Assembly (NCBI GenBank): GCA_905221605.1
Contig: CAJNDS010001469.1
Location: 415,501 to 479,500 of the forward strand
Source: Symbiodinium natans
Lineage: Eukaryota; Sar; Dinophyceae; Suessiales; Symbiodiniaceae
DNA: 64,000 nucleotides
Direction of reading: 5' to 3'
Positions 2,185 through 20,078 of the stretch are shown one piece after another (position 1 is the stretch's first letter; every line of letters starts with the position of its first letter). The notes beneath the pieces were generated by a model. That model was not told where the DNA came from. It saw nothing but the letters and a program-made list of their open reading frames with translations, and made no database searches. The translations under genes and the position numbers were made by a program.

Positions 2185-2189
2185 TAGGG
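2185..2189. repeat. Target-site duplication TAGGG (left)
   Basis: TAGGG directly precedes the left LTR and recurs directly after the right LTR at 12117. Five base pairs is the usual copia integrase stagger. The sequence is part of a telomere-like unit, so the target was itself a telomere repeat. Confidence 0.85.
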
Positions 2190-2418
2190 TGCGGAGCTGC
2201 AATTGGTATTGTAGAAAGGAGTTGGTATTGGAAGTTGAAGGGTCAATGAACCCGGTAATCTTTGGCTCAAGCCATGACCAAAGCGGTCGAAGGTTTCGAA
2301 AAAAGTGTACCCTTGGTTTGGGGTCTTGCTGTTCGGTTGTTGGTTGTTCCAGGGGTAATAAGGGCTTCTGTTGGGGTTGACTGTCTTGTTCCCTGTCCTC
2401 CTTCGGTTGCCCCCCGTA
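2190..2418 (+). repeat. 5' long terminal repeat
   Basis: 229 bp, starting TGCGGAGCTGCAATTGG and ending GGTTGCCCCCCGTA. It begins with canonical TG but ends TA rather than CA. Promoter and polyadenylation signals should lie here, but I cannot place them. Positions 2261-2271 read TTTGGCTCAAG, matching the 3' end of the dinoflagellate spliced leader. Confidence 0.95.
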
Positions 2419-2430: not shown

Positions 2431-2480
2431 AAATTAGGCTTCCTGCGGAGTTGGTAAAGATTTTTCGTTTGTTTAACGCC

Positions 2481-5400
2481 ATGGACATGATGCGGCGTCG
2501 CTCTGAGCCTGGACTGTCGCCAACGGCCAATGAAGCCGAAGGAAATCGTGGTGATGGGGGTGAAGATCGACAACAAATGGTACAAGCACTGACAGATGGT
2601 AGGGAGGTTGCAATGATACAACCAACGCCTCAGGTGGAAAACGAAGTGGTTCCGGTTCAAGCAGCAAATCCTTTCTGGAGCGAGCGGGCTCAAGAAGAAA
2701 TGAGACTTAGGCAATCAAGGCCGGCAAGTCTTCCCGCGAGCGGAGGGGATAGGAGTGGTGAAGGTACGAGGAGACCGCCTTCGCTGCAAGACCTTTTGGG
2801 TCAGGAACCTGCACCTGTTGAGAGACCATCGTCAGGCTTAATGGGACAAATGGAACGAGGTACTATTGGTGGAGTGCAAGCCGACGAAGAACTCATTCCT
2901 GATGTTAGTGGTGAAGAGCAAACTGAAGATATGGCGGTGGTGAAGCGTGCGCTGAAAGAGTTGCTTGTGCAAACAAAGGAGCTGGGGAACAGGTTGCATC
3001 GGGTGGAGGAGAAAAGCTATACCTCTGCTGCATCTGGGTCAGCTTCAAGGGCACGGAGCTCTGGAGTGGTGGACGCAAACACGGCATATCCTCTAGGAAT
3101 GACTCCAGAGAAGCAGTACCTGCCAGGACAAGTTTTCTACACGGATGGTATGGGTGGTTTTTGGACTGTGTTGCCTGATGGGACATGGCTGCCTATTGAG
3201 GGCTACGACCTGCCAAAGGGTTGTGATCTTCAATCCTTGCCTGGGTCCAGGAAGGGGGATGTTCAAGTGGAGGATGAAAAAGAAGTGCCAATGATGCATG
3301 TAGCTGAAGGGAAGAAACCCTCCAGATTGCCTCCATTGAATTACCCCACGGGAGGTCCTGCAAGTGGTGGATATGCAAGTGGACCACCTGGTTTAACACA
3401 TGTTCCGATTATTTCCGTGCCATCAGGTGTTGATGGTTCTGTCGCACCTGCGGGGAACCAGCCCGGTTTTGTTTCAGCTCGGGAAACTGCGACGCAAGAG
3501 AACTCAGCAGGATCGGGTGGATATACAATGGTGGATGATGTTCCGTATCGGTGGAAAATGGTCGCTGGGAAGTTGGAATTAGAAAAGGTTCCGCTCACAG
3601 CTGTTACGCCCGGTATAGGACATGGACTACCTCAAGGGCCTGGTGGAAGGGTCAGTTTACCTCCTGGAGCAGTGGTGCCACGCGGTATGCCAATCACTGG
3701 TGATAGTTCTGGAACCGAACGTCCGGAGGCTCTCGGGAAGCATGTGATGAGCCTTCCAACTTTGGCAGACTACACACCAAGCAATCCGACGGCACTGGGT
3801 GATTGGATCGCAATGATCGAACCAATGTTGTCTTCGCTGACAGATACAGGAAGAGTGTGGTGGCAATGCGTCTACTCAAAGGCATATCAAGCGTATGCCA
3901 AATGGTTGAGTGTTTCTCCACTGGAAAGGTTGGGCATCAAGGCTGAGCTGGAAGGGCTCAAAGTGGTTCAAACTGTGCATGTTTTGTTGGAGCAGAGAGC
4001 GGTGTCTTTGCTGCTACAGGCGATTCCGGAGAGATTGAAGACCGAGATCGTTTCCACTCGAATGTTGGGGTCAGTGATGATATTTTACAAATTGCTGACG
4101 GTTTACCAACCAGGTGGAGCAAATGAGCGCAGCACAATGTTGAACTTCTTGGTGCAACCATCTTCAGCAACCTCGATCTCAGAGGCTATTAAGGGAGTGC
4201 GACAATGGGCGCAATGGCGTTCCCGATTAAGGGAGCTGCGAGCATCCGAGCCGGACGCTACCTTGCTTATCAAGGGATTGGATGCTTTATCATCCGCGTT
4301 GCTGGCAAAACACCCTACGGTGCATTTCAGAGTGGCATCCTTTCGGGAGAAATTGGGGGTGGACTACTCGCCGACCTCTGAAACTGCGACACAACTAGCT
4401 GAAATGTTACAGGCAGAGTTTGAACTGCTATTGCATAGTGCTGGTGAACAGGAGGTGAAGCAGGACTCGGACGCCAAGAAAAGGGCCAGGTTAAACAAGG
4501 CCCAAAAGGGAACTGGTGACGAGACAGAGGAGGGTGACAAAGGCAAAGGGAAAGGAAAAAGGTACAGCGGAGATGGTGAACGTCCTTTCTGTTGGATATA
4601 TGGGAAGACCGATGCAGGTTGCAAGTTCGGATCCCGCTGCAAATTTCGCCATGACAAAGACTCCCTTGAGCGAGGAAGATGTTTTGAGTGTGGGGCCGTT
4701 GGCCATCTGCAGCCGCAATGTCCATATAAGGATGGTGCAAGTTCCAATGTGGACTCAAACCCTGAGAGAAGCAGATCTAAAGGGAATTCTCCCAAAGGGG
4801 GAAAGGGCGGCAAAGGTGCGAAATGGGGAAATGCCAAAAAAGCAGAGGTAGCTGAAGGGGGAGATGAGACGGCTAATGCGGGATTGGATAAAGGTTCTGC
4901 AAGTCCCCCATCACCATCAACACCCAATCAAGTCCTTGCTGAAGCGTTGGAAGTGCTGAAATCTATGAAGCTGTCATCAGCGCAGTCAGCATCGAGCGGG
5001 GATCCCAGTGTTCGAATGTTATGTGGATCTGGATTGTTTCAGCAGGAAGGGAGAGTGGCGTTGGTGGATACAGCTGCTACGCATCTTGTGCGGACGCTTT
5101 TTCCATGGGAATGTTTACCCGACACTACTGTTATGGTGCAAAGCGCGCTTGGTGGTGTGACAATGAGGATTACAGAGAAAGGGACGTTGATTAGGGAAGA
5201 CAATGGGCCCCTGATTATCCCTCTCTGGTTGATTTTGGAGTTTGGGGCGAACCTCACTGTGATCAATGGGATGTGTCACGTGGGTGCAAAATCTTCGCTG
5301 GACCAGCTCTTGTGGTTTGAACATGGCTGTTTGGTTATGGATTACAAAACAGCTGAAAAAATGGTTTTGCATGCTGAAAGGCAGCGTGCGTCTTGGTCCC

Positions 5401-8400
5401 ATTCTCAATGGAGGAATGGAAGGGCGGACTGTGGAGTCGGTTCGTCGGATGCCACGTTGTTGCCGAAGCAGGGAGAAGGCCGAGGAGTATGCGTTCTACA
5501 TGTGGCCAGGGTTTCTGACACCAATGAGTGTTCGGGAATGGGCATGTTGGACTCGGGAGCATCACATCCTCTCAGATCACTTCGTCCTGGAGAACAGCTT
5601 CCGCAGCAAAAGGTGTTGGTGTCTTTAGCTGTTGGATCTCGGGAGATGTGTATAACCCCAGGTGGGACCCTGGTAACTCCTGAAATGGTAGATCCACTAG
5701 TGCCAATTGGCAAAGCGAGCGCCTTGGTTGGTCTCAGAGTTCAGTGGCGTGGTGGCAAGTGCACAGCCTCACATCCTGTTCTGGGGGAACTTCGCGTTCG
5801 TGATCTGAATGGGTGCCCTTGTTTGGAAAAGGAGGTGGCGCTTCAGATCATTGATGAAATGGATTGGTGCTCACCAAAGCAAGCTTTGAAGGTGGCACGT
5901 ATGGTTCAAGGGTGTCCGAATACGGACAACGAGGTGGCTGTAAAAACGTCGTTGCAAAGCGCAGCGCGGACAGCGTCAGCGAATGAGGAGGAGTTCGTCC
6001 AGGCATGCTGGAGATTTCTTCGGTGGTATTATGGGGATATACCAGAAAATATGCTGATGGAGCTGTTGCCACGTGGAGATATTGCGGCGTTGCCTTTCAA
6101 CCGTCATAAAAGGAGACGGCTGGCACGAGCAAAAAGGGTGGTGGTACACCTATTTTCAGGAAAACAAAAATGGCATTTTCCCAGTCGGGATGTGGAGGTA
6201 CTGGAGCTGGATTTGACAAAAGGCGGTGACCTACATAATTCGAGCGTCTGGAAGTATCTTCTGCATCTGGCGGCTGAAGGAAAGGTGGTTGCTGTGGTGG
6301 GAGGACCTCCATGCAGGACAGTGTCAAGGTTGAGAGGTGAAGACGGTGGTCCACCTGTATTACGCCGGCGCTGTGGGCCTGAACGGTTGGGAGTAAAAAG
6401 TCTTCCTTGGCCACATCAAGAATTAGCTCAAAAGGATGGTGTTTTACTTCTGAAGATGCTTTTCCTATATGACGTGGCGGTGCATTCAAGGTGTGGAACT
6501 GCTGAAGTCATCAATGGAAGTTCTGTCTTCTTTGGCATGGAAAGCCCTGGGGACCCTGAACTCATAGGGAAAGATTTCTCTCAGAACGGCAAAACGGTCT
6601 TGAGTGCTGAGGATCTGGTGGATGGTTCTCAGGAAGGGCTCTCAAGTCCTACCTTCTGGAGTTGGCCAGAGGTGAAAAGCTTTTGTGAGCGTTATGGAAT
6701 GTACGCTGCACACTTTGATCAAGGAGCATTGGGACATGCTCTGGTGAAACCTACGACTTTCCTGGTGTCTGATATGGAACTATGGGAATCGTTGGAACAG
6801 GTTCGCGTGGTTGTTCCGTGGTCAGCAACATTCGCTTCTACCCTGGAAGAGCGTATTGGACAATCCTCTATATGGGCGCGATGGGCGTTTGGATTGGTTA
6901 AAAGAATACGTCACAGGTTGGCACAATGGTTGCATGAGAGCGATGCTGAACGGGAAGCTACGGTGTTAAAAAAAGAAGAACGAGAAGGAACATTGCGGAG
7001 GTTAACAGCTGAAGAGCGAGCTTTCCGTGACCATTGCCTAAGGGGGCATATTCCCTTCAGACGTGATTGTCAAATCTGTGTGTCTGCTGCTGGAAAAGAG
7101 CGTCGCCATTTGAGGCGAAAGCATGGGGATGCTTACACTTTATCATTGGACTTAGCGGGTCCATACAAGTTTTCAAAGGATGCTCACCAGCAGAAGCCAC
7201 GACACGCTGTTATTGGTGTGTATCAATTTCCAATGTTGGATCCCAATGTGGGTCGCCCTCCAGAAAAGGAGGAAGATGCGGATGAGGTGGAAGATCAGGT
7301 GGTAGATGATGGTGCTGGTGTTGGAGAATGGTTAGGCGATGCAGTCGCTAACTTCGAGGAGGAAGACTCTGCACCGGTGGAACCTGCGCCAGTTCTGGAG
7401 GCAGAGGTGTTGAAAATTCAAGCTTCTGAAAAATCCTGGAAGGAACTGAAGGACCACTTGACCCAACCGGTTCGTATGATCAACTTCGTTATGGTGGAGC
7501 CGATTGTGGACAAACAGCAAACAACTGTTTTATCGGCAGTTCAAAGAATGATGGTGCGCTTGCAGAGACATGGGTATCCGGTGTTGAGAATCCACTCAGA
7601 TCGAGCGGGGGAGTTTGTCAATGCACGCTTCCGGTCCTTTTGCGAAACTCGTCTGATATATAGGACCACTGGTGATCCTGGAGTCCCGCAAACAAATGGG
7701 CGCGCTGAAGCATGTGTGGGTTTATTCAAACGTGGTGTCAGGTCGCTCTTAAAGGAGGCGCGACTCGGACCGGCGTACTGGGCACTGGCTGCTCGCCATT
7801 GGTCAATGTTACGGTGGCAGAAAGCTGAAAGGGAGTTGGGGTTAAATCCTAAGGCATTGCTTCCCTTTGGTGCTCAGATTCAAGTTAAACGTCGTCCGTG
7901 GGAGTTGCTGGGTCCGGATGGAACAAAGAAAGGTCGGCAATGGGTCGATCGTACGCAGCCTGCACTTCTTTTGGGTCCATGCGATGACCTACCTGGTGGT
8001 TATTGGGTGGAAGCTCAAGGGACTGCAAAAGATCCGGATGAACTGGTGTTATTTCCCTGCACTACGATTTTTTCCAATATAAAGGAACCGCCTGACTTGG
8101 AGCTGGAAGGGGTGGTAGAAGAACAGGAGCCTTCTCCTCCAGAGCATCGTCTCAAGGGGAAAAAACCGGCGCTTCGGTTCGCTGATGAGGAAGGTCCTCC
8201 TTTACCTCCGCCTCGCGATCCTCCAGTTCGTCATCGGTTAAATGAAAAAAGCCCGGCCTCTTCACTGCGTGGTCATGTGGGCTCCTTGCGCTTGCTTCGC
8301 AAGCGGGGGGAGAGTCCGCCCTTAGAAATTTTCGAGGATGACATGCAGGGTCTGGGGGAGCTGGAAGAAAATGCAGATGTCGAGGACAATGTTCCTGGTG

Positions 8401-11400
8401 ATGAGTATTGGCCGACTTGCTGTTCTCCTCATGAAAATGCTTATTTGGTCTGCAAAAGTGAGACTGCTGAGGATGGAACACAGTTGGAAAAAGAAGAGCA
8501 AAAAGCCAAGTCAATGTATGAAAGGTCTATGTATGATTACGTGGACTGTGAGGAGCTTTTGGAAGGGATTGTATACCCAAAGAGGGTGAATCGAAGAGGT
8601 GGTATCAACAATTGGTGTACAAGTACGCGAGCTCTGGTGTTGGGCCACTATACTCATGGCGGAGTGTGTGGTATCACAAAAGAGACTCATCGAAGACCAT
8701 GGCTATGTCGTTATTTGGCATCATTCGTGAGGCACCACAATCCTGAAGCCAAATTTTCTGCTCTTCAGATCTCGTGCAATGCTCCGGTGTCATTGCATAG
8801 GGATAGTCACAATGAAAAACATTGCTGCAATTATGTGTGTGGCTTTGGTGACTATAAAGATGGTCAGCTGTGGGTTGAGGACGAAAAGGTTTTAGAGGAA
8901 GGAGCTGAAGTGGTGGAGCAATCTTATGGGAAGAAAGTCCTACCTGGAAAATTGGTCGATATCCACTGGAACTTCATGTCGTTCTTTCCGAGAAAACTGC
9001 ATGGTCCTATGCCTTGGAAAGGGAACAGGGTATCCTTGACAGGGTACACACCTGTTTTTATGGAGCGTTTGAGCTACAAGGATAGGTGCTATCTTCTCCA
9101 ATGCAAGTTTCCTCTTCCGGAACCACAAGCTGAAGAAGGTGAAAAAAGGAAATGGTTAAAAATGACGTTGAAAGAGACCTCGCTGGACGACCTTGCAGAG
9201 GAAGTCGACTACGCTGTGTTCGAAGCGCATCAATGGGCTCTAGAGGAGCATTTGAGTATTCGACGCCTAATTGCTGAACAGGAATGTTGCATTTTGGACG
9301 AGTTCCATGGATCGGCCAATGAGTCGAATGGAGAAAAAGGATCAGAGACTAGAGAATGGCTGGTTAAAGCAAAAAGGGCTGAGGAACAGCTCTCGAAGTT
9401 TTTGGTCAAAGCAGCTCAAGTTCAGCAAATGGTACAAGAAAATACCGCGCTTGAGGCAGCAGAGGAGGTTGAGTTCCTGCAAACAAAAACAATCCCTACA
9501 CAAGAAGCCATGCAAGAGCTGGAAAAGTGGAGGGAATCATTGTCGGACGAGGTGACGTCTTTGGTGAAAGAGTTGGAGGTGGTGGAACCAACAACTCAAG
9601 AAAAGCTGGACAAATTGGCGGAAGAGCCTAATGCACCGGTGATTGAGTACGTTCCCAGTCTGGTGGTGTTTACCCGGAAGCAAGGGACAGGGAGGCGACG
9701 TGCCCGTATCTGTGCATGTGGAAACTTCATTTCGTCAACGGCAGCTACAGAATATGAAGGGCCGAGGTCACTCAGTCGTCACTCGCTGTACGCTCCAGGT
9801 TTAGATTCAACTACATTCAGGTGTCAAGTGAGGCACGCAGCATATATGGTGTGGATCATCGCTGGCTTAGACATTTCCAAAGCTTTTCTGACGGCGCCGA
9901 TGAATAGGGCGCGAAGAGAAGGGCGTTTGGTGGTGGTGCAGCCCCCAAGGGCGGCGGTGAAATTGGGTCTTTGCACAAAAGAGGAGCGGTGGATTGTGAG
10001 GAAGGCCTTGTACGGTTTGGCCGAAAGTCCTGCAGCATGGGTGGAGTGGCGAGACCAACGTCTTCAAGGGATGTCTTGGGTGTCAAAGGATGGACAAGCA
10101 ATGAGCTTTCAGAGGTCCAATGCAGACCCAAGTCTGTTCCTTATTATGGCGCAAGAGAAGCTGGAAGGTACAAGCAAGTTGGTAGGGACAATGGGTCTTT
10201 ACGTGGATGATTTTTTGATGGCTGGGACTATGACAGTGCTCCGGGAGGCCTTGGAACAGATTAGGAAGGAGTGGAAAACTTCTGAACCCGAGTTCTGTGG
10301 TCCAGGCTGCGGTGATGGATTCCTGAAGTTTTTGGGTGTCCAAATCTGGTATCGAAATGGCAGCTTCTTTCTCAACCAGGAGGACTTTGTGAGAGATTTG
10401 CTGAACCGACGAGGGTATCAGATCGATGAAACTGGAAAAGGGAGTAACCTGCCAATGGTGAAAGAAACTCCAGGTGAAGAAGAGGAGGTGGATATTCCTT
10501 CCTTGCGAGCGGCTCAAGGTGCCGTAGGGGAGTTCCTCTGGGTGGCAATCAAAACTCGACCTGATTTGGCGTTCTGCACGAGCCAGTTGTCTTTGTGGAC
10601 ATCCCGAAGGCCGCGATTTGTGGTTAAAAAGGCTGAGGAGGTTTTCCGATACCTTGCTGCAACTCCAACGTTAGGCTTGACGTTCGGAGCAATCGCAACA
10701 TGCGAAAAAGAAAGAAATGAGGTGTTGCGTTATGGACGAGGCGTTAAGGTGGTGGAGTCCTACGCGGATGCCAGCTTTGCAGCAGGTGAAAACGAAAAGA
10801 GCCACTCAGGAGCGGTGGTGGTGTGGGGTGACTGTCCAGTGATGTGGGCAACACAAAGACAATCAACGGTGGCTTTAAGTACAGCTGAAGCTGAATTACA
10901 TGCGTCCATAGAGGGAGCAACGATGATTCAGTCGTGCACCCCTATAATTGCCGCTTTGGTTGGAACAGGTGAAGAATCGCTGCAAAAAGTGCTGTATACA
11001 GATTCGGTCTCAACGTGCTCGATCATTCAATATCCTGCTGGAAGCTGGAGGACAAGACACCTGAGAATTCGAGCAGCCGGTGTCAGGTCTCTGGTGGACC
11101 GTGGTTATATGGTGATAGCGCATCTTCGCGGTGAGTATATGATCGCTGACCTGTTGACCAAATTGATGAGTGGACAGGTGTATGCAAAGCAAAAGGCACT
11201 TTGGGGTCTCCGACTGTTGGTACAAGGGACTGACTTGAAAAAAGCCTCGCTTGCAATGGCGGTCATGATGGTGGCTGCATCTCTGCAAGGGATGGCAATT
11301 GGTGGCGAAGAAGTGTCCACGGCTGGATTCTTTTGCTCAGAAGAAGGGGTGTGCAAGGTCGCCAACACGTCTACGGTGATGGTTCTGGCTCAAGGTATTG

Positions 11401-11702
11401 AAATGGTTGTCAACAATTCAGACCTTGTTGCATATTTGGTGGCAGCAATTATACTCTGGGAACTGGCATGGTGCCTCTTTCGACGGCTGTATAAATGGCT
11501 GTGGATAAAGAAAGCGGTGGTTATTCCTGCGAGTGCCACTTTGTATACAACAGTGGGTGGGAACTGTATGCACGCAAGCAGTGACTGTGATGTTCTGCGA
11601 TATTCACAACTCAGGGCTAAAACGCTTTGTAAGCATTGCCTCAAGGATGGCTGGGTGGTGAATGCTGAGTTCCTTGGTGAGGAACGGGCCGCTGGAACGT
11701 GA
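2481..11702 (+). CDS. Copia-type Gag-Pol polyprotein with methyltransferase-like and 2OG-oxygenase-like domains
   Basis: A 3,073-aa polyprotein in one frame. The ATG at 2481 is chosen because it is the first in-frame ATG and sits in GCCATGG context; the frame is open upstream to a TTG at 2451. Visible modules (residues from this Met): Gag-like 423-655; CCCH finger 704-724; CCHC knuckle 734-747; protease-like repeats around Asp863 and Asp1024; C5-methyltransferase-like module about 1220-1460 with PPC Cys1278; integrase with HHCC 1518-1533 and D1557, D1707, E1743; oxygenase-like module with H2106, D2108, H2174, R2183; helical charged linker about 2290-2375; reverse transcriptase with D2464 and YVDD 2574-2577; RNase H from D2763; membrane segment about 2983-3001; Cys/His tail 3029-3053. 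No Gag-Pol frameshift or stop is visible, so Gag excess, if any, must come from processing or another mechanism. Processing sites cannot be placed. Confidence 0.97.
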   Translation: MDMMRRRSEPGLSPTANEAEGNRGDGGEDRQQMVQALTDGREVAMIQPTPQVENEVVPVQAANPFWSERAQEEMRLRQSRPASLPASGGDRSGEGTRRPPSLQDLLGQEPAPVERPSSGLMGQMERGTIGGVQADEELIPDVSGEEQTEDMAVVKRALKELLVQTKELGNRLHRVEEKSYTSAASGSASRARSSGVVDANTAYPLGMTPEKQYLPGQVFYTDGMGGFWTVLPDGTWLPIEGYDLPKGCDLQSLPGSRKGDVQVEDEKEVPMMHVAEGKKPSRLPPLNYPTGGPASGGYASGPPGLTHVPIISVPSGVDGSVAPAGNQPGFVSARETATQENSAGSGGYTMVDDVPYRWKMVAGKLELEKVPLTAVTPGIGHGLPQGPGGRVSLPPGAVVPRGMPITGDSSGTERPEALGKHVMSLPTLADYTPSNPTALGDWIAMIEPMLSSLTDTGRVWWQCVYSKAYQAYAKWLSVSPLERLGIKAELEGLKVVQTVHVLLEQRAVSLLLQAIPERLKTEIVSTRMLGSVMIFYKLLTVYQPGGANERSTMLNFLVQPSSATSISEAIKGVRQWAQWRSRLRELRASEPDATLLIKGLDALSSALLAKHPTVHFRVASFREKLGVDYSPTSETATQLAEMLQAEFELLLHSAGEQEVKQDSDAKKRARLNKAQKGTGDETEEGDKGKGKGKRYSGDGERPFCWIYGKTDAGCKFGSRCKFRHDKDSLERGRCFECGAVGHLQPQCPYKDGASSNVDSNPERSRSKGNSPKGGKGGKGAKWGNAKKAEVAEGGDETANAGLDKGSASPPSPSTPNQVLAEALEVLKSMKLSSAQSASSGDPSVRMLCGSGLFQQEGRVALVDTAATHLVRTLFPWECLPDTTVMVQSALGGVTMRITEKGTLIREDNGPLIIPLWLILEFGANLTVINGMCHVGAKSSLDQLLWFEHGCLVMDYKTAEKMVLHAERQRASWSHSQWRNGRADCGVGSSDATLLPKQGEGRGVCVLHVARVSDTNECSGMGMLDSGASHPLRSLRPGEQLPQQKVLVSLAVGSREMCITPGGTLVTPEMVDPLVPIGKASALVGLRVQWRGGKCTASHPVLGELRVRDLNGCPCLEKEVALQIIDEMDWCSPKQALKVARMVQGCPNTDNEVAVKTSLQSAARTASANEEEFVQACWRFLRWYYGDIPENMLMELLPRGDIAALPFNRHKRRRLARAKRVVVHLFSGKQKWHFPSRDVEVLELDLTKGGDLHNSSVWKYLLHLAAEGKVVAVVGGPPCRTVSRLRGEDGGPPVLRRRCGPERLGVKSLPWPHQELAQKDGVLLLKMLFLYDVAVHSRCGTAEVINGSSVFFGMESPGDPELIGKDFSQNGKTVLSAEDLVDGSQEGLSSPTFWSWPEVKSFCERYGMYAAHFDQGALGHALVKPTTFLVSDMELWESLEQVRVVVPWSATFASTLEERIGQSSIWARWAFGLVKRIRHRLAQWLHESDAEREATVLKKEEREGTLRRLTAEERAFRDHCLRGHIPFRRDCQICVSAAGKERRHLRRKHGDAYTLSLDLAGPYKFSKDAHQQKPRHAVIGVYQFPMLDPNVGRPPEKEEDADEVEDQVVDDGAGVGEWLGDAVANFEEEDSAPVEPAPVLEAEVLKIQASEKSWKELKDHLTQPVRMINFVMVEPIVDKQQTTVLSAVQRMMVRLQRHGYPVLRIHSDRAGEFVNARFRSFCETRLIYRTTGDPGVPQTNGRAEACVGLFKRGVRSLLKEARLGPAYWALAARHWSMLRWQKAERELGLNPKALLPFGAQIQVKRRPWELLGPDGTKKGRQWVDRTQPALLLGPCDDLPGGYWVEAQGTAKDPDELVLFPCTTIFSNIKEPPDLELEGVVEEQEPSPPEHRLKGKKPALRFADEEGPPLPPPRDPPVRHRLNEKSPASSLRGHVGSLRLLRKRGESPPLEIFEDDMQGLGELEENADVEDNVPGDEYWPTCCSPHENAYLVCKSETAEDGTQLEKEEQKAKSMYERSMYDYVDCEELLEGIVYPKRVNRRGGINNWCTSTRALVLGHYTHGGVCGITKETHRRPWLCRYLASFVRHHNPEAKFSALQISCNAPVSLHRDSHNEKHCCNYVCGFGDYKDGQLWVEDEKVLEEGAEVVEQSYGKKVLPGKLVDIHWNFMSFFPRKLHGPMPWKGNRVSLTGYTPVFMERLSYKDRCYLLQCKFPLPEPQAEEGEKRKWLKMTLKETSLDDLAEEVDYAVFEAHQWALEEHLSIRRLIAEQECCILDEFHGSANESNGEKGSETREWLVKAKRAEEQLSKFLVKAAQVQQMVQENTALEAAEEVEFLQTKTIPTQEAMQELEKWRESLSDEVTSLVKELEVVEPTTQEKLDKLAEEPNAPVIEYVPSLVVFTRKQGTGRRRARICACGNFISSTAATEYEGPRSLSRHSLYAPGLDSTTFRCQVRHAAYMVWIIAGLDISKAFLTAPMNRARREGRLVVVQPPRAAVKLGLCTKEERWIVRKALYGLAESPAAWVEWRDQRLQGMSWVSKDGQAMSFQRSNADPSLFLIMAQEKLEGTSKLVGTMGLYVDDFLMAGTMTVLREALEQIRKEWKTSEPEFCGPGCGDGFLKFLGVQIWYRNGSFFLNQEDFVRDLLNRRGYQIDETGKGSNLPMVKETPGEEEEVDIPSLRAAQGAVGEFLWVAIKTRPDLAFCTSQLSLWTSRRPRFVVKKAEEVFRYLAATPTLGLTFGAIATCEKERNEVLRYGRGVKVVESYADASFAAGENEKSHSGAVVVWGDCPVMWATQRQSTVALSTAEAELHASIEGATMIQSCTPIIAALVGTGEESLQKVLYTDSVSTCSIIQYPAGSWRTRHLRIRAAGVRSLVDRGYMVIAHLRGEYMIADLLTKLMSGQVYAKQKALWGLRLLVQGTDLKKASLAMAVMMVAASLQGMAIGGEEVSTAGFFCSEEGVCKVANTSTVMVLAQGIEMVVNNSDLVAYLVAAIILWELAWCLFRRLYKWLWIKKAVVIPASATLYTTVGGNCMHASSDCDVLRYSQLRAKTLCKHCLKDGWVVNAEFLGEERAAGT
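2936..3025 (+). other. N-terminal charged helix, possible coiled coil
   Basis: The segment around VKRALKELLVQTKELGNRL has heptad-like leucine spacing and could mediate Gag assembly. The surrounding N-terminal 420 residues are Pro/Gly/Ser-rich and I do not recognise them. Confidence 0.4.
3747..4445 (+). other. Gag-like capsid region of the polyprotein
   Basis: Residues about 423-655 are helix-rich, starting SLPTLADYTPSNPTALGDWI. They lie directly upstream of basic linkers and zinc fingers, where copia Gag/UBN2-type domains sit. Assigned mainly by position and general character; profile comparison was not possible. Confidence 0.65.
4590..4653 (+). other. CCCH-type zinc finger in Gag
   Basis: C704-X9-C714-X5-C720-X3-H724, with KFGSRCKFRH typical of CCCH RNA-binding fingers. 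Classic copia Gag has only a CCHC knuckle, so this is an added RNA-binding finger ten residues upstream of the knuckle. Confidence 0.8.
4680..4721 (+). other. CCHC zinc knuckle (nucleocapsid)
   Basis: C734-X2-C737-X4-H742-X4-C747 (CFECGAVGHLQPQC), the standard retroelement nucleocapsid motif for binding genomic RNA. A Lys/Gly-rich basic stretch follows. Confidence 0.93.
5043..5390 (+). other. Protease-like module 1, DTA variant
   Basis: LVDTAATHLVRTLFPWECLP places D863-T-A where active retropepsins have D-T/S-G. The following ~40 residues align with module 2 (ALGG.TMRIT..GTLI against AVGSREMCIT.GGTLV). Loss of the glycine suggests a weakened or structural subunit. Confidence 0.7.
5526..5870 (+). 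other. Protease module 2, DSGASH
   Basis: MLDSGASHPLR contains the canonical copia aspartic-protease motif at D1024-S-G-A-S-H. It starts 161 residues after module 1 and is clearly homologous to it. Expected to cleave the polyprotein as a dimer, or as a pseudo-dimer with module 1. Confidence 0.85.
6138..6870 (+). other. C5-cytosine-methyltransferase-like module
   Basis: VVVHLFSGKQ resembles motif I (D/H-L-F-x-G, AdoMet binding). VVGGPPCRTVSRLR resembles motif IV with the catalytic PPC Cys at C1278. FGMESPGDPE sits where motif VI (ENV/ENP) is expected, with Glu retained. HFDQGALGHALVKPTTFLVSD resembles the conserved end of the catalytic core. C5 methyltransferases inside dinoflagellate retrotransposons are known from published work; whether this module is the same type and active is not proven. 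Target-recognition motifs cannot be placed. Confidence 0.6.
7020..8080 (+). other. Integrase (HHCC and DD35E core)
   Basis: Zinc-binding HHCC: H1518, H1523, C1530, C1533. Catalytic residues: D1557 (SLDLAGPY), D1707 (HSDRAGEF) and E1743 (NGRAEACVG), with exactly 35 residues between the second Asp and the Glu. The D-to-D interval is 150 residues, much longer than usual, because of a Glu/Asp-rich insertion (about 7260-7390). Directs insertion of the cDNA; the 5-bp TAGGG duplication fits its activity. Confidence 0.93.
8586..9065 (+). other. 2-oxoglutarate/Fe(II) dioxygenase-like module
   Basis: APVSLHRDSHNE supplies an H-x-D pair (H2106, D2108). Sixty-six residues on, RKLHGPMPW gives the distal His (H2174), and GNRVSLTGYTP gives Arg R2183 nine residues later. 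This H-x-D...H...R spacing is that of the double-stranded beta-helix oxygenases (AlkB, TET/JBP and prolyl-hydroxylase relatives), which bind Fe(II) and 2-oxoglutarate. Strand-like NYVCGFGDYKDGQLWVED lies between. The substrate cannot be told from sequence. Confidence 0.6.
9355..9600 (+). other. Charged helical linker before reverse transcriptase
   Basis: Residues about 2292-2373 are rich in Glu, Lys, Ala and Leu without prolines except near PTQEAM, suggesting a coiled coil between the oxygenase-like module and reverse transcriptase. Confidence 0.5.
9640..10470 (+). other. Reverse transcriptase (RVT_2, copia type)
   Basis: Motif A is GLDISKAFLTAPM with D2464; motif C is GLYVDDFLMAG with the YVDD box at 2574-2577. 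RKALYGLAESPAAW matches the copia LYGLKQSPRAW signature. All three catalytic aspartates are present, so the enzyme looks intact. Copies element RNA to cDNA. Confidence 0.95.
10500..11180 (+). other. Connection and RNase H domain
   Basis: Starts with the copia signature RPDLAFCTSQLSLW. RNase H acidic residues are visible in ESYADASFA (D2763), STAEAELHA and LYTDSVSTCS, followed by TRHLRIRAAGVRSLV and the typical LRGEYMIADLLTK end. Removes RNA from the RNA-DNA hybrid. Confidence 0.92.
11250..11702 (+). other. C-terminal extension: membrane segment and Cys/His tail
   Basis: After RNase H there are about 150 extra residues that classic copia lacks. They hold a hydrophobic stretch at ASLAMAVMMVAASLQGMAIG, a stronger transmembrane-like segment LVAYLVAAIILWELAWCLF (about 2983-3001) followed by basic KWLWIKK, and a tail with C3029, H3031, C3036, C3050 and C3053. 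I do not recognise the family. Position alone might suggest an envelope-like role, but nothing in the sequence demonstrates this. Confidence 0.55.
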
Positions 11703-11880: not shown

Positions 11881-11887
11881 GGGGGAG
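11881..11887 (+). promoter_or_regulatory. Polypurine tract
   Basis: GGGGGAG immediately precedes the TG of the 3' LTR, the expected place for plus-strand DNA priming. Confidence 0.85.
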
Positions 11888-12116
11888 TGCGGAGCTGCAA
11901 TTGGTATTGTAGAAAGGAGTTGGTATTGGAAGTTGAAGGGTCAATGAACCCGGTAATCTTTGGCTCAAGCCATGACCAAAGCGGTCGAAGGTTTCGAAAA
12001 AAGTGTACCCTTGGTTTGGGGTCTTGCTGTTCGGTTGTTGGTTGTTCCAGGGGTAATAAGGGCTTCTGTTGGGGTTGACTGTCTTGTTCCCTGTCCTCCT
12101 TCGGTTGCCCCCCGTA
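11888..12116 (+). repeat. 3' long terminal repeat
   Basis: 229 bp matching the 5' LTR along its whole length by eye, including the SL-like TTTGGCTCAAG at 11959-11969. Confidence 0.95.
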
Positions 12117-12121
12117 TAGGG
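12117..12121. repeat. Target-site duplication TAGGG (right)
   Basis: Matches the TAGGG before the 5' LTR; GTTAGGGTTTAGG follows, confirming a telomere-repeat target. Confidence 0.85.
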
Positions 12122-12434: not shown

Positions 12435-12740
12435 GGTTGATGGCTGGGATGCCGAACCCTGTGAGGACCATCTGGTCCCGTGGCTGTCACACCCCGGAAG
12501 CCATATCCAACCCACTCCCAAGAAAACGGCGTAGCCTTCTTATGCTTCTGAAAATCCGAACCCTGAAGACTTGCGTCAAAGAAACTCGCGACCCCAAAGC
12601 CCAAACCCCTCAACCCTAAGCCCCCAACCCTGGAACAAACAGAAACTTTTTCATGGCCAGGCCTCCTGCAGTGCTTGCGCCGCGTCACGCCGCGGCCGCG
12701 AACAGCCCTGGGGAGACCAGGCAGAGGCCGCCGGAGATTG
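12435..12740. other. No gene recognised
   Basis: GC-rich 300 bp between a C-strand and a G-strand telomere-like array. Several short overlapping open frames, none recognisable. Confidence 0.5.
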
Positions 12741-12839
12741 GGGTTTAGGGTTTAGGGTTTAGGGTTTAGGGTTTAGGGTTTAGGGTTTAGGGTTTAGGGT
12801 TTAGGGTTTAGGGTTTAGGGTTTAGGGTTTAGGGTTTAG
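12741..12839 (+). repeat. Perfect telomere-like array (TTTAGGG)14
   Basis: Fourteen exact TTTAGGG units without variants, one of the most homogeneous arrays in the window, suggesting recent origin or active homogenisation. Confidence 0.97.
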
Positions 12840-18834: not shown

Positions 18835-20078
18835 AAACCATGATTTTTCAAACTACTCGGAGACCCAAGCCCATAGTTTGGAAAATCATGGTTTTTATGG
18901 TTTTTATTGGTTTTTGCGATGTTTCGTGAGCATGGGCTCAAAAAACATCGGTAAAACCAATGTTTTTTTGAAGGTAGGGGTTCAAAAACATCGGTAACAC
19001 CAATGTTTTGGAGAGGCCACCTTCAAAAAACATCGGTAAAACCAATGTTTTTGGAGCCCCTGCTCAGGAAACATCGCAAAAACCAATAAAAACCATAAAA
19101 ACCATGATTTTTCAAACTACTCGGAGACCCAAGCCCATAGTTTGGAAAATCATGGTTTTTATGGTTTTTATTGGTTTTTGCGATGTTTCGTGAGCATGGG
19201 CTCAAAAAACATCGGTAAAACCAATGTTTTTTGAAGGTAGGGGTTCAAAAACATTGGTAAAACCAATGTTTTGGAGAGGCCACCTTCAAAAAACATCGGT
19301 AAAACCAATGTTTTTGGAGCCCCTGCTCAGGAAACATCGCAAAAACCAATAAAAACCATAAAAACCATGATTTTTCAAACTACTCGGAGACCCAAGCCCA
19401 TAGTTTGGAAAATCATGGTTTTTATGGTTTTTATTGGTTTTTGCGATGTTTCGTGAGCATGGGCTCAAAAAACATCGGTAAAACCAATGTTTTTTGAAGG
19501 TAGGGGTTCAAAAACATTGGTAAAACCAATGTTTTGGAGAGGCCACCTTCAAAAAACATCGGTAAAACCAATGTTTTTGGAGCCCCTGCTCAGGAAACAT
19601 CGCAAAAACCAATAAAAACCATAAAAACCATGATTTTTCAAACTACTCGGAGACCCAAGCCCATAGTTTGGAAAATCATGGTTTTTATGGTTTTTATTGG
19701 TTTTTGCGATGTTTCGTGAGCATGGGCTCAAAAAACATCGGTAAAACCAATGTTTTTTGAAGGTAGGGGTTCAAAAACATCGGTAAAACCAATGTTTTGG
19801 AGAGGCCACCTTCAAAAAACATCGGTAAAACCAATGTTTTTGGAGCCCCTGCTCAGGAAACATCGCAAAAACCAATAAAAACCATAAAAACCATGATTTT
19901 TCAAACTACTCGGAGACCCAAGCCCATAGTTTGGAAAATCATGGTTTTTATGGTTTTTATTGGTTTTTGCGATGTTTCGTGAGCATGGGCTCAAAAAACA
20001 TCGGTAAAACCAATGTTTTTTGAAGGTAGGGGTTCAAAAACATTGGTAAAACCAATGTTTTGGAGAAGCCACCCTTTT
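18835..20078. repeat. 263-bp satellite, about 4.7 tandem units
   Basis: Units start near 18841, 19104, 19367, 19630 and 19893, exactly 263 bp apart and almost identical. Each unit is itself foldback: AAAACCATGATTTTTCAAAC faces GTTTGGAAAATCATGGTTTT, and GAAACATCGCAAAAACCAAT faces ATTGGTTTTTGCGATGTTTC. Short frames of 60-61 codons on both strands repeat with the unit and are not convincing genes. Confidence 0.95.

Follow-up and report, generated by a model that had tools for sequence, protein, structure and literature searches.

Within a 64,000-nucleotide stretch of Symbiodinium natans DNA (contig CAJNDS010001469.1, positions 415,501 to 479,500; hereafter the window), we found a Ty1/copia retrotransposon whose single gag-pol frame carries a predicted C5-methyltransferase module and a predicted 2-oxoglutarate (2OG)/Fe(II) oxygenase module. 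Our preferred reading, to which we give a probability of about 0.5, is that a copia lineage of Symbiodiniaceae-type dinoflagellates uses these C5-methyltransferase-fold and TET/AlkB-fold domains to modify the element's own complementary DNA (cDNA) or RNA in series, first methylating and then oxidising it. Within this reading we regard both modules with their catalytic residues, their predicted folds, the recurrence of the pair and purifying selection as established by prediction and comparison. The original prediction had placed both modules in one 3,073-amino-acid (aa) copia frame, and this proved correct (2451-11702, forward strand; 3073 aa from the ATG). The span it gave, 6138..9065, begins at the VVVHLFSG motif and stops a little short of the oxygenase module's own end, at about 9113. 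With residues numbered from the TTG at 2451, the features are as follows.

2481..11702, + strand: single gag-pol frame from the ATG (residue 11), 3073 aa; from the TTG start at 2451, 3083 aa
5988..6950, + strand: C5-methyltransferase-fold module, 321 residues (1180-1500), between protease and integrase
6138..6161, + strand: VVVHLFSG, resembling motif I of S-adenosylmethionine (AdoMet) sites
6300-6320, + strand: GGPPCRT, with putative catalytic Cys1288 at 6312..6314
6540..6542, + strand: motif VI-type Glu1364 (E-x-P-x-D)
8448..9113, + strand: 2OG/Fe(II) oxygenase module, TET/AlkB fold, 222 residues (2000-2221), between integrase and reverse transcriptase (RT)
8796..8804, + strand: H2116-x-D2118, putative Fe(II) ligands
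9000..9029, + strand: H2184 (putative Fe ligand, 9000-9002) to R2193 (putative 2OG contact, 9027-9029), nine residues apart

The methylase module is predicted with confidence to adopt an AdoMet-methyltransferase fold specific to the C5 class. Of the 57 sequences aligned, one of them the window, 56 keep its catalytic-type Cys (P0056 has PPG for PPC), and all 56 that have a residue at the motif VI position keep the Glu; PPC and E-x-P rank among the most conserved positions of the alignment. These results support a C5-methyltransferase fold with catalytic residues, its activity being putative. The oxygenase module was likewise confidently predicted, as a double-stranded beta helix with H-x-D...H and the 2OG Arg, which supports a TET/AlkB-fold 2OG oxygenase with putative catalytic residues. 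H-x-D is among the most conserved positions of its alignment and, with the distal His and Arg, is retained in most relatives despite 21-30% identity. Among methylase-bearing sequences, 9 of the 11 readable cases retain H-x-D (the window standing for P0001), and all ten that have the module's second half retain the distal H...R (P0057 by eye). The full Fe/2OG set occurs in six distinct methylase-bearing lineages (the window, P0003/P0004, P0014, P0052, P0054/P0055 and P0056) and in other contexts too, namely the P0058/P0062 copia polyproteins and the P0070/P0071 zinc-finger proteins. The VVVHLFSG, GGPPCRT, H-x-D and distal His and Arg of the original prediction are all found at the coordinates read and, judged by conservation and fold, are more than chance motifs. 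Both folds it had proposed are predicted, and PPC and H-x-D/H/R are kept in most related copies; neither outcome that it had named as telling against it was seen.

Standard searches gave little for either module. Single-sequence searches of both in Pfam and PDB sequences returned nothing credible. A PDB profile search with the methylase gave nothing significant; of its eight matches, two were unrelated and six were to chains of DNMT1, confined to the neighbourhood of motif IV (E 0.81-1.9). Against a profile of four DNMTs from the element's own genome, the methylase profile reached a probability of 60.5 (E 8.4e-5) with motif IV in register, and the same four DNMTs as single sequences gave probabilities of 0.09-8.9. 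The PDB profile search with the oxygenase stayed below significance, with four unrelated matches. Pfam PF12851 (Tet_JBP) touched 2 of 14 oxygenase members, none above cut-off, the best (13.7 bits against 34.9) being P0003 and not the window. On the own genome PF12851 gave zero matches, but 0 of 14 controls matched too, making this search uninformative. Viral contigs scanned with the oxygenase alignment yielded 68 pattern matches and no relatives. Chance detection of the oxygenase was rejected, as the iterated profile scores all bearers, short fragments included, at 22.9 or more and the best other sequence at -0.1.

The pair recurs, as the original prediction had asked. When iterated profiles were run on the window and 71 fetched proteins, 12 of the 57 methylase-bearing polyproteins proved to have the oxygenase too (P0001, P0003, P0004, P0014, P0050, P0052, P0054, P0055, P0056 and, in part, P0005, P0007 and P0057). 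In the other 45, four were listed with oxygenase scores of -0.1 or lower and the rest went unreported at E 10. No RT was detected in five of the 45 (P0002, P0008, P0025, P0031, P0039), so their integrase-RT slot is not judgeable. The integrase-to-RT gap is 130-393 aa in 40 non-bearers versus 353-606 aa in the eight measurable bearers, the overlap being due solely to P0030 and the partial P0057. Named relatives of the element's proteins come from Symbiodinium sp. CCMP2592, S. microadriaticum and Cladocopium goreaui.

A backbone tree of 56 tips, with P0001 and P0007 omitted, was built on alignment columns from the methylase, the integrase and the RT; the IQ-TREE run started from the FastTree tree. 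All 11 bearers in it sit together in a single clade of 14 tips, with Shimodaira-Hasegawa support of 0.968 in FastTree and an ultrafast bootstrap of 99 in IQ-TREE. The three non-bearers in this clade are P0002 and P0008, both without a detected RT, and P0006, whose short gap is likely to reflect oxygenase loss. The simplest history suggested by these sequences is a single oxygenase gain in a methylase-bearing copia lineage, followed by long retention and occasional loss.

Some relatives carry further domains. The methylase-bearing copia polyproteins P0012, P0027 and P0053 have dUTPase domains in their precomputed annotation (PF00692), a further nucleotide enzyme that the lineage has captured. 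P0058 (residues 1391-1597 and 2216-2411) is a different copia polyprotein with the oxygenase after the RT plus a Tpt1/KptA RNA 2'-phosphotransferase (PF01885, E 7.5e-21), possibly an RNA-end repair enzyme of that retrotransposon. P0070 (379 aa) and P0071 (359 aa), on very short contigs, combine this oxygenase with three C2H2 zinc fingers; they are possibly sequence-directed base oxidases and a candidate cellular donor of the oxygenase.

Copy number and selection were studied in the element's own genome (759 Mb, 2543 contigs). The oxygenase occupies at least 112 places and the methylase at least 124, all 98-100% identical; both counts are lower bounds, with 1636 oxygenase and 834 methylase candidates seen. 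In 31-32 sequences, the ratio of non-synonymous to synonymous polymorphism (pN/pS) was 0.114 (0.068-0.177) in the methylase, with 0.059 (0.038-0.088) in the integrase and 0.184 in the spacer; in this set 11 loci cover the methylase in part only, and every locus was picked by its oxygenase, so that well-kept copies are favoured. A first oxygenase pN/pS of 0.046 was biased because copies had been selected through oxygenase similarity. It was replaced by 0.086 (0.047-0.147), from 15 methylase-chosen stretches plus the window. At methylase-chosen places the oxygenase was found at the expected distance in 15 of 16 fetched stretches. Across the 16 sequences compared, H-x-D and the Arg are invariant and the distal His is altered in one, and a single-base gap in the module in 4 of the 15 stretches indicates that some copies have decayed. 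Comparison with L021, a divergent relic without an integrase match, put the methylase ratio of non-synonymous to synonymous substitution (dN/dS) at 0.139; oxygenase synonymous change was saturated. Judged by these ratios, both modules are under purifying selection and have been useful to the element.

Because this selection acts on two enzyme folds inside gag-pol, it suggests that the enzymes act while the element replicates, on nucleic acid of its own. Both modules would be cut out of the polyprotein, or would act within it, as enzymes in the virus-like particle. The methylase would add a methyl group at C5 of a pyrimidine in element RNA, hybrid or cDNA; the oxygenase would oxidise that group, or the methyl of thymine. 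New cDNA, built from plain nucleotides, would thereby be marked before integration into a host genome rich in 5-methylcytosine (5mC) and 5-hydroxymethyluracil, a richness reported for relatives. In Symbiodinium, CG methylation is reported to cover most of the genome (PMC5890265), and dinoflagellates are reported to have abundant 5-hydroxymethyluracil, which in Breviolum minutum is enriched in multimapping, repeat-type reads (PMC11071213). Phages are described as using a methylase and TET pair to make hypermodified bases in series (PMC12730594), and by analogy cDNA could acquire such marks from a methylase and then a TET-like oxidase. A more specific version, which we consider improbable, is a self-contained base-hypermodification cassette: pyrimidines of the element's cDNA would be methylated or directly oxidised, giving a copy that looks like the DNA of dinoflagellate chromatin, and the elements, at their 124 or more places, would be one source of nuclear oxidised pyrimidines such as 5-hydroxymethyluracil.

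Several observations weigh against methylation and oxidation in series. In 40 of the 57 methylase-bearing polyproteins the integrase-RT interval holds no oxygenase, P0006 is such a non-bearer inside the bearer clade, and P0058 has the oxygenase with no methylase detected; on these grounds the pair is not essential to the copia life cycle. The oxygenase tree differs from the backbone tree: it groups the window with P0061 and P0003 (0.994) and P0052 with P0056 (0.948), sets P0050 apart, and weakly nests the P0058 type (P0058/P0062) among the bearers (supports 0.2-0.86). The placements of P0050 and P0058/P0062 make transfer between elements possible, and the tree, too weakly resolved for a co-inheritance test, neither confirms nor excludes a single gain. 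Residues are also lost: P0050 has Q-x-D and P0005, at its broken end, H-x-E; P0005 and P0007 are without the second half of the oxygenase module; and outside the methylase-bearing set P0065 has neither distal His nor distal Arg, while P0067 is broken. Neither module passed a Pfam cut-off in the window, and PF00145 had no match at E 10 in the window or in 17 members of set A1.

The methylase itself raises a further difficulty. A canonical motif VIII (R-x-R) and a visible target-recognition domain were not found in the module; at the expected place of motif VIII stands DQG...GH...KPT, with about 65 further residues to the module end. The methylase may for this reason be inactive, or may act on a substrate other than duplex CpG DNA. 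With this degenerate motif, no visible target-recognition domain, and the catalytic Cys or His lost in single members, both folds could be catalytically dead and retained for a structural or nucleic-acid-binding role in the polyprotein, but the rank of PPC, E-x-P and H-x-D among the most conserved alignment positions makes this quite unlikely.

The fold ranking bears on what the oxygenase would act upon. TET structures rank first, ahead of AlkB by about 1 Z unit, a narrow lead for a TET-like assignment; JBP structures are absent among the matches listed, which is not evidence against the JBP family. An AlkB-type RNA demethylase paired with an RNA 5-methylcytosine enzyme, together protecting or licensing the element's RNA, would fit less well with TET at the head of the list and with the sole sequence-level hint, PF12851 at E 0.038 and under cut-off, also pointing to Tet_JBP; we consider such RNA-directed modules unlikely. 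The same ranking also speaks for a writer and an eraser in opposition, the methylase silencing or marking and the oxygenase stripping host or own 5mC to escape silencing. Anti-silencing roles have been proposed for the TET/JBP genes of fungal DNA transposons (PMC12730594, available text), and the CG methylation of Symbiodinium (PMC5890265) also fits this account. Opposing enzymes in one protein would however cancel unless kept apart in time or substrate, and no sign of such separation is seen here, leaving this a rather doubtful account. The 'writer and eraser' proposed originally is only one possible reading of the pair: the methylase is without a visible target-recognition domain, and a methylase and TET pair also makes hypermodified bases in series. 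We continue to prefer modification in series.

The remaining features define the element itself, with its long terminal repeats (LTRs).

2190..2418, + strand: 5' LTR (TGCGG...CGTA), 229 base pairs (bp), within the 230-bp repeat 2189-2418 / 11887-12116
11888..12116, + strand: 3' LTR, same sequence as the 5' LTR
2185..2189 (left copy) and 12117-12121 (right copy), no strand: 5-bp target-site duplication TAGGG, read in the flanks
4608..4724, + strand: gag CCCH finger and CCHC knuckle, residues 720-758 (sub-threshold Pfam zf-CCCH_4, E 0.0046, and zf-CCHC, E 0.03)
5055..5225, + strand: protease-like segment 1 (VDTAATH), residues 869-925
5538..5708, + strand: protease-like segment 2 (LDSGASH), residues 1030-1086
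7020..8009, + strand: integrase region with H2C2-type start, residues 1524-1853, by iterated profile
9471..10412, + strand: RT region, residues 2341-2654, by Pfam RVT_2 and iterated profile

The repeat pair is 100% identical over 230 bp, its leading base being part of the left target-site duplication. RVT_2 (E 6.4e-10, 39.5 bits against a cut-off of 31.6) identifies a copia-type RT, and the integrase lies upstream of it, confirming the Ty1/copia order. Given the identical LTRs, the TAGGG duplication, the copia-type RT, an integrase core under its cut-off (rve, E 0.0026) and gag-type zinc fingers, the element is a recently inserted Ty1/copia retrotransposon. The two segments that we take from their motifs to be protease are tandem and retropepsin-like (35% identity over 57 residues, E 3e-9), a duplicated protease region. 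After the polymerase comes a tail (11226-11699) with a pair of hydrophobic stretches, the best of them near residue 2992, and an end rich in Cys and His; it may be a membrane-anchoring or envelope-like extension. The insertion site is TTTAGGG telomere-like sequence, so an insertion preference is possible; telomere-like arrays lie at 284-356, at 12738-12839 and elsewhere, on either strand, across 16.6 kb from the start of the 20 kb that were scanned. A 263-bp tandem array occupies 18964-20000, up to the end of the scanned stretch, its unit an imperfect inverted repeat with 121-nt arms 87-88% complementary.

Four known systems come closest. SymbioLINE-Dnmt and SymbioDIRS-Dnmt3 are likewise dinoflagellate retrotransposons with a C5-methyltransferase domain (de Mendoza 2018, PMC5890265), but on LINE or DIRS backbones and found with PF00145, whereas the window element has a copia backbone with LTRs. 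The original statement that methyltransferases are reported in dinoflagellate retrotransposons holds for LINE and DIRS elements; copia is said in that study, which searched with PF00145, to lack any DNMT domain. PF00145 gives 117 matches in the S. natans genome, none listed at the window's methylase module, which would explain the earlier miss. In Symbiodinium genomes no retrotransposons are more abundant than copia (PMC5890265). That many copia elements have a cryptic C5-methylase fold changes the picture of copia as DNMT-free. The retrotransposon described here, itself very abundant, may chemically dress its own copies before genome entry; it is a concrete candidate for an origin of the oxidised pyrimidines of dinoflagellates. 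TET, oxygenase and hydroxymethyl did not come up in a term search of PMC5890265, and the open-licence PMC literature searched, seen in part, yielded no retrotransposon that combines a methylase with a TET-like oxygenase. TET/JBP-type oxygenases are carried by fungal mobile elements too, but these are DNA transposons and Helitrons, and the authors of that 2025 study saw no TET/JBP retrotransposon (PMC12730594, available text). The AlkB-bearing element of Phalaenopsis is also an LTR retrotransposon with a 2OG oxygenase; it differs in being Ty3/gypsy, with the oxygenase in an additional frame and kin to plant RNA demethylases, and its abstract names no methylase (PMC9289625). Pfam reported no glycosyltransferase for the retrotransposon polyprotein. 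Phage hypermodification cassettes encode the same two enzyme classes, C5-methylase and TET, together; there the enzymes work with glycosyltransferases (PMC12730594, available text), whereas here both modules lie in one retrotransposon polyprotein.

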